Positions 13,807 to 29,224 of a DNA stretch of 30,578 nucleotides are shown one piece after another. Each line of letters begins with the position of its first letter. Position 1 is the first letter of the stretch. The DNA comes from a virus: the IMG/VR virus record IMGVR_UViG_3300043750_000084, positions 1 through 30,578 of that record. One strand, given 5' to 3'. Both the position numbers and the translations under genes were made by a program. Under the pieces are notes generated by a model. It did not search any database. It was not told where the DNA came from and worked only from the letters and a program-made list of their open reading frames with translations.

Positions 13807-13822
13807 GTGCTAGGGTAGATAC
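13807..13822 (+). promoter_or_regulatory. Motif promoter copy d (GTGCTAGGGTAGATAC)
   Basis: Exact consensus copy on the plus strand, 29 bases before the TTG start of the ADP-ribosylglycohydrolase. A weak TTGTGC at 13787-13792 is 18 bases upstream of TAGGGT. Confidence 0.75.
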
Positions 13823-16032: not shown

Positions 16033-16107
16033 GGCGTTTATCGGGCAATTAGTCTGTTCGAGGACACGCCGCCTTCTCCGCTATTCAAAGGGCGTGTCGG
16101 CCCCCGG

Positions 16108-16116
16108 TGCTAGACT
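16108..16116 (+). promoter_or_regulatory. Extended -10 of the DUF2637 gene (TGCTAGACT)
   Basis: TGC-TAGACT fits an extended -10 (TGN-TANNNT), 36 bases upstream of the GTG at 16153. It shares TGCTAG with the repeated motif but lacks AGATAC, so it may escape the shared control. Confidence 0.5.
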
Positions 16117-16152
16117 CTCACCACCAAGATCACCCTGGAGAAAGCGACGACG

Positions 16153-17337
16153 GTGGAGACAGAACAGGCCCAGCCTCCTGACAAGATTCCTGACCTGCTG
16201 AAATTCGAGCGGTTCCTGATGGGGACGGTGATCGCCGGGGCTTTCCTGGTAGGCAGTCTCGGTCTCGCGTCCTCGTTCGAGACGGTCGGAAACGCCGCCC
16301 GAGAATGGGGATTTCACCCGTTTTGGGTTCTTCCGGTGGCGATCGACGTCGCCGTCCCCGTTTTCTCCCTCGCTCACCTCTTGCTGATCCGGGCGGATAT
16401 GCCGCTCGGCTGGGTCCGCGCAGTCCCGTGGGGATTGACCGGCGTCACCATCTACCTGAATATCGAAGCGGCTGGCTCCAGCGTGGCGTCGAAAATCGGG
16501 CACGCGGCTCTCCCGCTGCTGTGGGTGATCTGCTCCGAGATTGCCGCGCACGTTTATCGTTCGTTGATCGGTGCGGTCACCGGGCGGCGGATGGAAAGGG
16601 TCAGGAAATCCCGCTGGCTGCTGGCCCCGTTTTCCACGGCTGGCCTGTGGCGGCGAATGGTTCTGTGGGAGGTCACCTCTTATCGGACGGCCCTGGTCCT
16701 GGAGAGCAAGCGGCTTATGGCGAGGGCGGATCTGAGGGACGTGCACGGGCGGGGGTGGCGTCGGAAGGTGTCCCGTAGGCAGCTGGTCCAGTTGCGGCTG
16801 GGGGAGATGGAACCGGCGGTGGAACTGGAACAGCCGGTGGTCCAGGTTCCGGTCCAGACGGTCCCGGAGTTGGAACGGGTGTCCGGGTCGGTTCCACGGA
16901 CTGGAACGGGACGGCACCGGAGCCAGGCTGTGGAACGTCGGGTGGAACAGGTGGAACAGGCGGTGGAACCGGCTCCGGTTCCGGTCCAGGTTCCACTGGA
17001 ACAGCCGGTGGAACCGGAGGTGGAACTGGAACAGGTCCAGGTTCCACTGGAACAGCCGGTGGAACTGGAACGTGGAACGGACCTGGAACAGGTGGAACCT
17101 GGACTGGAACCGGTGGAACTGACGGGGCGGGCGTCCACGAAGAACTCCCAGGTCAGGGCGGTTCTGGAACTGATGGAACAGGTTGGAACGAGCGACGTGA
17201 GCACGACAGTGATCGTGGAACAGACCGGGATGCCGAAGACCACCGCGTACCGGAGGCTCAAGGACGCTCAGAAGGAGTGGAACGCGGGTCGGCGGACCTG
17301 GAACGGTGGAACGGGAACCGCCCAGACTGGAACGTGA
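16153..17337 (+). CDS. DUF2637 membrane protein with C-terminal HTH
   Basis: 394 residues, GTG start with GGAGAAAG upstream. Four hydrophobic segments lie at about 21-42, 53-77, 85-103 and 113-133, matching DUF2637, a domain found in Streptomyces plasmid, conjugative-element and phage proteins. Residues about 135-215 are basic and cytoplasmic. Residues 215-320 are low-complexity (VELEQPVEPEVELEQ) and are encoded by the TGGAAC array. Residues about 325-372 (SQVRAVLELMEQVG..VSTTVIVEQTGMPKTTAYRRLKDAQ) look like a winged helix-turn-helix. The whole could be a membrane-tethered DNA-binding protein. The protein tail WNAGRRTWNGGTGTAQTGT is dictated by the same DNA repeat. Confidence 0.8.
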   Translation: METEQAQPPDKIPDLLKFERFLMGTVIAGAFLVGSLGLASSFETVGNAAREWGFHPFWVLPVAIDVAVPVFSLAHLLLIRADMPLGWVRAVPWGLTGVTIYLNIEAAGSSVASKIGHAALPLLWVICSEIAAHVYRSLIGAVTGRRMERVRKSRWLLAPFSTAGLWRRMVLWEVTSYRTALVLESKRLMARADLRDVHGRGWRRKVSRRQLVQLRLGEMEPAVELEQPVVQVPVQTVPELERVSGSVPRTGTGRHRSQAVERRVEQVEQAVEPAPVPVQVPLEQPVEPEVELEQVQVPLEQPVELERGTDLEQVEPGLEPVELTGRASTKNSQVRAVLELMEQVGTSDVSTTVIVEQTGMPKTTAYRRLKDAQKEWNAGRRTWNGGTGTAQTGT

Positions 17338-17429
17338 GCGGGTGGAACCGAACACCTGAACTGGAACGGGCCCACTGGAACGAGGTGGACCGGATCCACT
17401 GGAACAGGAACCTGGAACGGTTCTGGAAC
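16808..17429 (+). repeat. TGGAAC hexamer array (about 35 copies)
   Basis: I count about 35 TGGAAC copies on the plus strand in 622 bases against about 3 on the minus strand. They start inside the DUF2637 gene and run six copies past its TGA at 17335-17337. All three codon phases are used (nTG-GAA-Cnn, nnT-GGA-ACn, TGG-AAC). Two copies form the palindrome GTTCCA-C-TGGAAC (about 16990 and 17041). This is a DNA-level repeat rather than a protein repeat. Confidence 0.9.
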
Positions 17430-17434
17430 GCACG

Positions 17435-23816: not shown

Positions 23817-24749
23817 TCACGGCGTGGGACGACCCCGGCCAGCAGTACGCCGCCGCGCGTCCTCCACCGGCTTCCACGGATCGAAGTCGCTGCCGTCCGT
23901 CACCACCGGCAGCACCTGCCGGATCAACCGCTCCGCCTCCCGCACGCTCACCGTGTTCCAAGGAGAGTTGGCGATCTCGAAAATCGTGCACGCTGACCGG
24001 AAGATACCCATCGTCCAGCCGTTCCTAGCGTGCTGAAGGGCCTTCAGCTCGTCCCGGGCCCCACGGATGACCCACTCGGCGTAGAAGTCCCACCGCTGGG
24101 CCGTCGCAGCGTCCGGAGGGGCCATAGACGCCCCCTCAGCGGCCTGCACGGTCCCTTCCCGGCCCTCCGGGTCAGACTGCTTCTCACAGAGCCGCAGAAG
24201 CCAACTGGGGGCCTCCTGGATCGGGTCATCCGACAGCACCTCGTACAGGCCCTTCGCAGACCGCGACGGAGGCAGCACGATGAACGCGCCACCGTCCCCG
24301 GCCTTGAAGTCCAGGTCCGGCCCCAGCACGCTCAACGACGTCTTCAGGGCAGGCCCGCTATAGCGGTACAAGTACTGGATGCCGCCGCCCCCGGTGCGGT
24401 GCTGCCGGGTAGAGGTCAAGTCGTCCCAACCGTGGACGGCTGCAAGCGCCTCCAGGGATTCGCGGCCGACCTTGCCCGAGTCGGTGTCCACGTCCAGCAC
24501 GACCACACCCGTAGGGCTTCCGGTGATCAAGCCGAGGTTGAACAGCCCGCTGCGGAACTCCTCTTCAGCCTGCTCCGGGGTGCGGATGGCGCGGGCACCG
24601 TGCGGATCCTTGTACACGGGATGCTTGCCCGCCCGCGAACCACAGGCACGGGCACAGGTGCAATTCCCGTTGCGGGTGATCCCGTGGATCTTGGTCAGGA
24701 CGTAGCCGTCCTCCAGCCACTCCAGGGCGGCATCAAGCGTCTCAGACAT
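23817..24749 (-). CDS. Bifunctional DNA primase/polymerase (prim-pol domain)
   Basis: 310 residues, ATG at 24749. The archaeal-type prim-pol motifs appear as GVVVLDVDTDSG (about 84-95, metal-binding acids), RQHRTGGGGIQYLYRY (about 114-129) and LDFKAGDGGAFIVLPPSRSAKG (about 145-167). The N-terminal CTCARACGSRAGKHP is the usual Cys-rich lead of this family. It makes primers and possibly extends them for phage DNA replication. No helicase domain is fused, and no helicase is visible in the window. TAGGAT lies six bases before the ATG, so the message may also be leaderless. It ends near the RyR-like gene. Confidence 0.9.
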   Translation of the reverse strand: MSETLDAALEWLEDGYVLTKIHGITRNGNCTCARACGSRAGKHPVYKDPHGARAIRTPEQAEEEFRSGLFNLGLITGSPTGVVVLDVDTDSGKVGRESLEALAAVHGWDDLTSTRQHRTGGGGIQYLYRYSGPALKTSLSVLGPDLDFKAGDGGAFIVLPPSRSAKGLYEVLSDDPIQEAPSWLLRLCEKQSDPEGREGTVQAAEGASMAPPDAATAQRWDFYAEWVIRGARDELKALQHARNGWTMGIFRSACTIFEIANSPWNTVSVREAERLIRQVLPVVTDGSDFDPWKPVEDARRRTAGRGRPTP

Positions 24750-27641: not shown

Positions 27642-27818
27642 TCACTTGCGCTTGATCAGGACGACCCAATACGCGCCCCGGACCTTCTCAACCGAGACAC
27701 CCATCTCCTTGGCCAGTCCGCGCCCCTTCAGGGTCTTCGCGTACTTGTGGGCCGCAGCCCACGCCGCATCCTGCGTGTCGTGGGAGCTGATGAACGTGGA
27801 GTCGCTGCGCTTTGCCAT
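27642..27818 (-). CDS. Unknown 58-residue basic protein
   Basis: ATG at 27818 with GGAGACCTCCCCCA upstream, TGA at 27642. The product begins MAKRSDSTFISSHDTQDAAW, continues AAAHKYAKTLKGRGLAKEMG and ends VSVEKVRGAYWVVLIKRK. It is strongly basic, and the second half resembles a short helix-turn-helix-like pattern (LAKEMGVSVEKVRGAYWVV). It could be a small DNA-binding protein. It lies beside the GTAAC repeat region, read away from it. Confidence 0.72.
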   Translation of the reverse strand: MAKRSDSTFISSHDTQDAAWAAAHKYAKTLKGRGLAKEMGVSVEKVRGAYWVVLIKRK

Positions 27819-27858
27819 TGGGGGAGGTCTCCTAGGAGTTGGTGTCCTCGGTGGGTAC

Positions 27859-27874
27859 GTATCTACCCTAGCAC
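27859..27874 (-). promoter_or_regulatory. Motif promoter copy o (GTGCTAGGGTAGATAC)
   Basis: Exact consensus upstream of the 58-residue gene, with the GGACACCAACTCC-TAGGAGACC leader. It is the left edge of the divergent non-coding region. Confidence 0.75.
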
Positions 27875-27889
27875 ATTACGATCATGGGA

Positions 27890-28190
27890 TCTACCCCCGA
27901 AACCCGGTTACCTCCTGGCGAGATGAACACACCCTGTACGACCCCAAGAAACACATCGCGCGTATAGGTGATACGTGAAGTAACAAAGTAACCGAGTAAC
28001 TATGCAGGTCAGAGGGGATTTTTGAAAGGTAACCAGGGAAGTAGCCGTGGGGTAACCAGGCTGTTTTGGGGGTTTGGATCAAGGGATGCGTCCGTATGTC
28101 CTGACAATTGGTCGACTGGTTACCCTGCCGGTTACCCGCGTGTTACTCCGATCCGAGTAACCTCCCCGCCACCTCGTGGGAGGCTTTAGG
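27890..28190. repeat. GTAAC iteron-like region (candidate origin or centromere)
   Basis: No gene is visible. Ten GTAAC pentamers occur: plus-sense at 27980, 27988, 27996, 28029, 28052 and 28157; minus-sense at 27907, 28119, 28131 and 28142. Three are in an exact 8-bp tandem (AGTAACAA-AGTAACCG-AGTAACTA). GGTAACCAGG occurs twice (28028, 28051), GGTTACCC twice (28118, 28130), and GTTACTC-6-GAGTAAC (28142-28161) is an inverted repeat. The region separates divergent transcription and precedes a ParB-like gene. Confidence 0.7.
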
Positions 28191-28232: not shown

Positions 28233-28248
28233 GATCTAGGGTAGATAC
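28233..28248 (+). promoter_or_regulatory. Motif promoter copy p (GATCTAGGGTAGATAC)
   Basis: Copy on the plus strand 25 bases upstream of the ParB-like gene; GATC replaces GTGC, so it lacks the TGN of an extended -10. Confidence 0.68.
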
Positions 28249-28273
28249 ATCCCAACCCCAGGAGGATTGCCTG

Positions 28274-29224
28274 ATGGCAACCCAGAGAAGCACCACTTCC
28301 GGCAGGAAGCCTTCCACGGCTAAGAAGGCAGTCCCGGAGCAGCGGAGCACCACGGCCACCACCGGCTCCACCCGCACCCGCACGCGCGCACAGAAGGAAC
28401 GGCTCCTCGTCGTTGAGGCGGAGGTGGCCCCGGAGATCAAGACCGAGTTCATCGACATCTCCCCGGAGTTGGCGGCTGAGCTGGTCAAGCCGGAGCGGAA
28501 CTACTGCAACCGCTCCGTGAAGGAGTCCGTGGTCAAGGCCTACGCCCGCGATATGGCGGCTGGCCGGTGGCGTGTGAACGGCGAGGGCATCCAGATCGAC
28601 GTGGACGGTGGGCTGTTGAACGGTCAGCACCGCATGCTGGCCATCATCATGTCCGGCAAGACCATCAAGATGCTGGTGGTCAGCGGTCTTCCTCGGAATA
28701 CGCGGGCCACGATGGACGCGGGCCGCAAGCGTACGAACACGGACAACTTCACCATGGACGGCGTGAAGAACGCGAAGGCGGTTGCTGCCATCTCGCGTCG
28801 CGCGGTTCTGTGGGAGCGCGGGGACAGGCGGTTCCGCGACATCGTGACCTTCGTTGAGGCGGAGGAGATGCTGGCGAAGCACCCGGAGATTCACCGGTCT
28901 GCGGAGATTGCGGAGCGTGTGCACCGCTCGTTCAAGCTGATCCCGACGTCGGCGCTGGGTACGGGTCACTTCCTGATGCACCAGACGGCTCCTGATGAGA
29001 CGCCGTGGTTCTTCGGTGCGATCGAGAAGGGCACGGATCTCAGTGAGGGCAGTCCGGTGCTGACGCTGCGGGAGCGTGTCCGGCGTGACCGTGACGACGG
29101 TATCCGGGTGGGCGATGTTCGTGCCCTGGCCTACCTGGTGCGGGCCTGGAATGCGCACCGCAGGGGGAAGACGTTGGCGCGGATTCAGCACGCGCTGAAC
29201 GAGCCGATTCCCGACGTGCTGTAG
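28274..29224 (+). CDS. ParB/sulfiredoxin-fold (ParB-like nuclease domain) protein
   Basis: 316 residues; ATG with AGGAGG nearby upstream. Residues 1-50 are a low-complexity Thr/Arg/Lys tail. Residues about 60-150 hold the ParB-like pattern: NRSVKESVVKAYARDMAAGRWRVNGEGIQIDVDGGLLNGQHRMLAIIMSGKTIKMLVVSG, where NGQHRM is the signature. The C-terminal half is helical. Actinophages often carry such proteins; roles in DNA partition, nuclease activity or regulation have been suggested but not proven. Its place right after a repeat-rich region makes repeat binding plausible. No partner ParA is visible. Confidence 0.85.
   Translation: MATQRSTTSGRKPSTAKKAVPEQRSTTATTGSTRTRTRAQKERLLVVEAEVAPEIKTEFIDISPELAAELVKPERNYCNRSVKESVVKAYARDMAAGRWRVNGEGIQIDVDGGLLNGQHRMLAIIMSGKTIKMLVVSGLPRNTRATMDAGRKRTNTDNFTMDGVKNAKAVAAISRRAVLWERGDRRFRDIVTFVEAEEMLAKHPEIHRSAEIAERVHRSFKLIPTSALGTGHFLMHQTAPDETPWFFGAIEKGTDLSEGSPVLTLRERVRRDRDDGIRVGDVRALAYLVRAWNAHRRGKTLARIQHALNEPIPDVL

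Follow-up and report, generated by a model that had tools for sequence, protein, structure and literature searches.

The stretch of DNA analysed here (the window, 30,578 nt) is a 30.6-kb virus fragment, and the GTAAC element that is our subject lies in non-coding DNA near its right end. The element is bordered on the left by a minus-strand gene for a basic protein of 58 aa with no confident family (27642..27818), a homologue of which occupies the same place in a relative (L003), and on the right by a plus-strand gene for a ParB-like protein of 316 aa that belongs to PHROG 5931, a family without assigned function (28274..29224). No convincing open reading frame was found between these two genes, and the region, searched directly as DNA against known phages, gave no match. 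The gap is plausibly the longest gene-free stretch in the window, the gene calls being crude. The ParB-like protein gave no match to Pfam, and its AlphaFold model (mean pLDDT 71) returned nothing significant from the PDB, the best ParB/Srx-like hit having a probability of 0.33.

These two genes are the direct neighbours of the element. At a distance of 3.2 kb lies a minus-strand gene for a stand-alone Prim-Pol primase/polymerase domain protein of 310 aa (23817..24749; PF09250). A helicase gene of the PHROG 5177 type was not found in the 30-kb contig, and the partner helicase of the Prim-Pol protein is presumed to be encoded outside it. Elsewhere in the window, a dense run of GGAAC/TGGAA (22 in 260 bp, 16930-17190) falls among open reading frames at 16081-17433 and has the look of a coding repeat, and the sole Rfam match is to a tRNA (RF00005, 12576-12657).

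An iteron cluster between divergent promoter-like motifs

The window copy of the element (27902..28167) consists of ten GTAAC iterons that flank a core, TGCAGGTCAGA. The ten pentamers, read as GTAAC or GTTAC, span 255 bp (27907-28161) and start at 27907 (-), 27980 (+), 27988 (+), 27996 (+), 28029 (+), 28052 (+), 28119 (-), 28131 (-), 28142 (-) and 28157 (+). Over the whole window the pentamer is about as frequent as expected (22 occurrences against 20); what stands out is its clustering, with ten sites in 260 bp against at most four in 300 whole-window shuffles, and none of 5000 local shuffles reached ten. The first-pass annotation, which had reported ten GTAAC pentamers in a non-coding divergent region, is thus borne out.

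From left to right, the element begins with an iteron within CCCGGTTACC (27907..27911, -), which is retained in three aligned main copies, followed by a CGCGCGTATAGG block (27957..27968, +) in whose place other copies carry a similar alternating CG/TA stretch. Three plus-strand iterons with 8-bp spacing come next (27980..28000). These had been described as an exact 8-bp tandem, and while the spacing holds, the bases between the pentamers are not alike (GTAACAAA GTAACCGA GTAAC); as the three intervening bases differ, the trio is a tandem by spacing only. The core, an 11-mer that is expected 0.015 times per window and is common to the first six copies, occupies 28003..28013 (+), and a short AT-rich run, ATTTTTGAAA, which is a possible melting site, follows just after it (28018..28027, +). 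To the right of this run is an exact pair of GGTAACCAGG repeats (28028..28060, +; starts at 28028 and 28051) that contains the iterons at 28029 and 28052. The right iteron group (28118..28161) comprises GTTAC at 28119, 28131 and 28142 and GTAAC at 28157, and includes a second exact repeat, GGTTACCC, starting at 28118 and 28130, together with an inverted repeat (28142-28161) with 10-nt arms that are 90% alike. The two longer direct repeats noted at first pass were found again. Iterons lie on either side of the core and ATTTTTGAAA, and AT content peaks at 60% in 50 bp. Folding of the element as DNA gave nothing unusual (z -0.61) and no large stable stem-loop.

The region is flanked by two outward-facing promoter-like motifs of the CTAGGGTAGATACAT type: CTAGGGTAGATACGT towards the leftward genes (27857..27871, -), and CTAGGGTAGATACAT itself 5' of the ParB-like gene (28236..28250, +). 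Such motifs occur 17 times in the window (0.16 expected) and 41 and 51 times in two relatives, with TG conserved before TAGGGT and a clear -35 box absent. The direction of the motifs flips at the GTAAC region in all three contigs (the window, G001 and G002), which places the element at the main divergence point of transcription. The genome-wide form of the motif, TGcTAGGGTAGATACAT, was collected from three contigs, and most of its 129 sites lie 27-59 nt 5' of start codons; examples among the 17 window sites are at 13810, 25656, 28236 and 29287. For 13 of the 129, a called gene has its ATG at a fixed position within the motif, which suggests leaderless mRNAs. AGATAC is conserved after the -10, an unusual feature that could reflect an operator. 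The core, the two bounding motifs and the recurrence of the element among relatives are additions to the original description.

Related elements beside helicase genes

A search with the ParB-like protein retrieved two relatives at 59-60% identity, G001 (76 kb; locus L003) and G002 (125 kb; locus L004), and in each of them the same pair of divergent promoters encloses GTAAC sites and the core. Including a more distant contig, G008 (89 kb), the element occupies this divergent place in three contigs besides the window. In G008 it adjoins a homologue of a 116-aa gene of the window, another gene stands in place of the ParB-like gene, and a ParB-like gene was undetected anywhere in the 89-kb contig. 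The first-pass annotation had taken absence of the repeats from this place in close relatives as evidence against its reading; they are present, and kept at the same place in both G001 and G002.

The relatives also carry further copies. G001 has two in total, the second at 71.9-72.2 kb, and G002 has three, with extra clusters at 68.0-68.2 kb (copy b) and 119.06-119.4 kb (copy c, with 12-bp iterons). The 11-mer TGCAGGTCAGA is present in all six aligned copies, against an expectation of 0.04-0.06 per contig; each of its three occurrences in G002 lies in an element, as do two of the three in G001. The GCAGGTCAGA version of the core is found in every copy of the phage family. Pairwise likeness among copies is 70-83%, and these identities do not support concerted evolution of the copies within one genome. 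The phage of the window, seen here as a 30-kb fragment, probably has further copies as its relatives do.

In G002, copy c directly follows a gene for a 612-aa helicase (117215-119053, +), and copy b precedes a paralog of 614 aa on the opposite strand (66052-67896, -). Both proteins (helB and helC) match the helicase half of PHROG 5177, a DNA polymerase/primase family, with E-values of 1e-85 and 3e-102. The fused proteins of Streptomyces phages JackieB and Microdon resemble the window Prim-Pol in their N half and helB/helC in their C half. As an observation on G002 itself, the two paralogs are 41% identical and the Prim-Pol gene is separate, so that the replication protein appears both split and duplicated. 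The AlphaFold model of helB (pLDDT 39) was too poor for use. Searches of the relatives with D5_N left the helicase undetected, since it belongs to PHROG 5177, and a scan for Walker motifs likewise missed it.

Two scans in opposite directions linked element and helicase. A DNA-only scan of IMG/VR with the pattern GTAAC-core-GTAAC yielded six further contigs of high GC with dense clusters, and in 6/6 the cluster lies directly 5' of a helicase gene; matches with few local GTAAC (for example L024-L027 and L029) were set aside as chance. Conversely, a protein-only scan for the helicase gave 13 loci of this phage family on 12 contigs, and at 13 of 13 the cluster and the core lie no more than about 350 nt away; several of these loci are near-identical or already known, so that they represent fewer independent lineages. 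A separate high-GC, non-coding stretch (L046:2154-2721) combines seven GTAAC and the core with several CGCAGGTCA motifs, and no primase is encoded in the 9.5 kb covered.

A constant core with phage-specific iterons

The same layout recurs in other phages with different iterons. In annotated relatives the non-coding DNA that follows the primase gene is filled with a phage-specific repeat and often includes the same core, and the 3' flanks of primase/helicase genes from other actinophages and two Streptomycetaceae genomes combine phage-specific iterons with a constant core, (G)CAGGTCAGAG. The iteron is GTGAAACA in DrLupo, GTTTC in Predator and GCGGAAC in Hawkeye, and the two Streptomycetaceae elements have GAACGG and GGAAACC iterons with the core GGTCAGAG. 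L028, an unrelated phage of 49% GC, has a gene for a fused Prim-Pol/D5 helicase, immediately 3' of which come two GCAGGTCAGAG cores, each between GTGTAACA repeats. GTAAC itself, the iteron of the window element, recurs in Streptomyces phage Hiyaa, Gordonia phage LittleFella, Nocardia phage P3.1 and Mycobacterium phage Indlulamithi, where it accompanies a core, or a near match to one, immediately after the 3' end of the primase/helicase gene. Two GTAAC clusters, with 13 and 11 sites, were seen in the cultured phage Hiyaa (36.9 and 79.9 kb). One is 3' of the primase and the other 43 kb away, and they are 71% identical over 347 bp.

The core was present in 15 of 42 primase 3' regions, whereas of 450 control stretches taken from those loci 25 had it (Fisher p 7e-8, a value that overstates independence because the regions and their neighbouring windows are related by descent). 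As the core had been recognised partly from these very sequences, a k-mer test is the fairer one: the 9-mer CAGGTCAGA occurs in 10 of the 42 regions and in at most 7 in shuffles, while the 8-mer version of the core did no better than tie with the best of 200 shuffles. Nor is the core found everywhere: 27 of the 42 regions are without it, and JackieB and Johann have iteron-like repeats but lack the exact core. Exact cores or near matches, the latter counted by eye only, occur in the primase/polymerase 3' flanks of actinophages (Hiyaa, LittleFella, P3.1, Indlulamithi, DrLupo, L028 and others). These flanks carry no origin annotation in their records, and they differ from the window copy in location. 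A search of an open-access library of papers found no description of the core, and no paper on the origins of Prim-Pol actinophages as a class.

Origins of comparable build are known from other mobile elements. Proven iteron origins lie 3' of helicase/primase initiators (PMC7581432, PMC6092414); in PICIs the origin, tested by plasmid maintenance, follows the rep gene and has an AT-rich stretch with a set of iterons to each side (PMC6092414). The PICI/SaPI pri-rep-ori module is alike in its short iterons, possibly also in their grouping into two sets about an AT-rich stretch, and in its position near the helicase/primase initiator gene, and its iteron also varies between elements (PMC6092414; Ubeda 2007 via PMC7581432). 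In contrast, the window copy lies away from the initiator, there are several copies per genome, Prim-Pol and helicase are on separate genes, the hosts of the element are actinophages, and no counterpart of the constant core GCAGGTCAGA is known from these sources (PMC6092414, PMC7581432). Compared with PICI/SCC-type origins, then, the window copy has the short repeats in non-coding DNA, and a Prim-Pol/SF3-type initiator is represented by the Prim-Pol gene in the window and the helicase halves in relatives; adjacency to an initiator gene is found for the sister copies b and c in relatives but not for the window copy, which for this reason may work like a PICI/SCC-type origin without being filed as one.

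The closest parallel in iteron length is SCCmec Cch2, a D5-type helicase with a separate primase-polymerase, which binds AAGTG iterons of five bases immediately 3' of the gene that encodes it (PMC7581432). There, three iterons make up a single site, whereas here there are about ten at two or three sites, and helB/helC come from another helicase family, PHROG 5177. Plasmid pRN1 similarly encodes a Prim-Pol and SF3 helicase, ORF904, and requires a cis region 3' of the replication gene, but this region needs a 100-nt stem-loop and is without iterons (PMC4234260), unlike the window element, which bears iterons and has no unusual fold.

A candidate origin and its alternatives

Three options had been offered for the repeats: an iteron origin, a centromere for the ParB-like protein, or a cluster of operators. 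We favour the first, at a probability of roughly three in four: judged from sequence, the GTAAC cluster is probably an initiator-bound replication-origin element of a lytic-type, Streptomyces-type actinophage, and one of several per genome. It occupies the same place in relatives, extra copies lie by helicase genes, and the same iteron and core accompany the primase/helicase genes of other phages. Cumulative GC skew, which had been suggested as a check, gave no turn at the element in G001, G002 or Hiyaa, a weak test if there are several origins.

From what comparison provides, namely the clustering of the sites, their conservation, the copies, the helicase-side location and the constant core with variable iterons, we infer a binding protein, melting, priming and origin firing as follows. 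The initiator would most likely be the SF3/AAA-type helicase of PHROG 5177, acting with the separate Prim-Pol primase/polymerase. The helicase would bind the GTAAC iterons that flank the core on both sides and melt the AT-rich bases beside it; Prim-Pol would then prime synthesis near GCAGGTCAGA, and forks would depart one or both ways. With one element at the promoter divergence point and others beside helicase genes, the elements of a genome might serve as multiple origins, or as one origin with auxiliary initiator-binding sites.

The second arrangement is a variant of the origin reading in which the helicase-side copy is the real origin and the window copy an auxiliary initiator-binding site, which may for instance titrate or handcuff the initiator. 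Phage P4 offers a precedent, since its replication uses two separated iteron-bearing cis sites, ori1 and crr, for one initiator, the alpha protein. The P4 iterons differ from GTAAC. The primase domain of alpha is of the bacterial (Toprim) type (PMC4234260). Copies remote from the initiator gene occur in G001, G002, G008 and Hiyaa, as this arrangement would expect; they are, however, as full as the helicase-side copies, with core, iterons and AT-rich run complete, and we consider a purely auxiliary role less likely than not.

Alternatively, a phage repressor, or the ParB-like or 58-aa protein, could act on the GTAAC sites to control the two divergent promoters. The bounding motifs and the switch in transcription direction exactly at the element fit such an operator cluster. 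However, at least two GTAAC within 150 bp were found at only 6 of 107 promoter motifs, all of them bounding the window-type element, so that GTAAC does not characterise the phage's promoters elsewhere; moreover, the sites spread over more than 250 bp instead of overlapping the promoters, and such divergent promoters are not found at copies b and c. We therefore regard this option as improbable, although auto-regulation by the initiator may occur as a side effect of an origin element.

A parS-like centromere, at which the ParB-like protein and a ParA-like ATPase would partition or organise the genome through dispersed GTAAC elements, appears slightly less probable still. The ParB-like gene does adjoin the window copy, two or three dispersed copies resemble multiple parS sites, and a ParA-like ATPase (PHROG 164, 1e-37) is encoded in G002 (42191-43162; L013:2191-3162, -) and in G001 (47026-47997). 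The ATPase gene is far from the ParB-like gene in both, 14 kb away in G002. Against the centromere, element and gene come apart in both directions: the element persists in G008 despite the replacement of the ParB-like gene, and Hiyaa, with its two elements, gave no ParB-like match; conversely, a ParB-like homologue in L020 (44-45% identical) is without a GTAAC cluster, and in two annotated phages (L145 and L146) the gene directly adjoins the one upstream, so that the element would not fit between them. Copies b and c, too, adjoin helicase genes away from the ParB-like gene, and the protein itself gave neither a Pfam match nor a significant PDB match. A further locus, L021:9983-11628, has a PHROG 5931-type gene directly followed by a gene for a canonical-looking ParB.

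Finally, a mobile or selfish MITE-like repeat that copied itself within these genomes would account for several copies per genome at 70-83% likeness, but is very improbable given their fixed positions across relatives by helicase genes or the divergence point, the same layout with different iterons in unrelated phages, and an unsystematic look at the alignment in which no terminal inverted repeats or target-site duplications were evident.

The origin reading leads to a broader and more tentative proposal, to which we give somewhat less than even odds: that large actinophages of this group have two or three dispersed, sequence-related origins each, and that a two-part origin code operates across many Prim-Pol/helicase phages, in which the constant core GCAGGTCAGA serves the conserved machinery, probably as the primase start site, and the phage-specific iteron serves the helicase's own DNA-binding domain. 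It would be unusual for a single lytic-type phage to have several dispersed copies, a point that is directly testable in the cultured phage Hiyaa. The two or three copies in related genomes, and their likeness to sites by the genes of copying enzymes, offer a testable way to find replication starts, and a shared core with swappable iterons would give a rule by which candidate origins could be located from sequence in many genomes. The same rule predicts which initiator pairs with which site and could supply parts for small replicons. If true, the two-part code would keep each phage's replication private.
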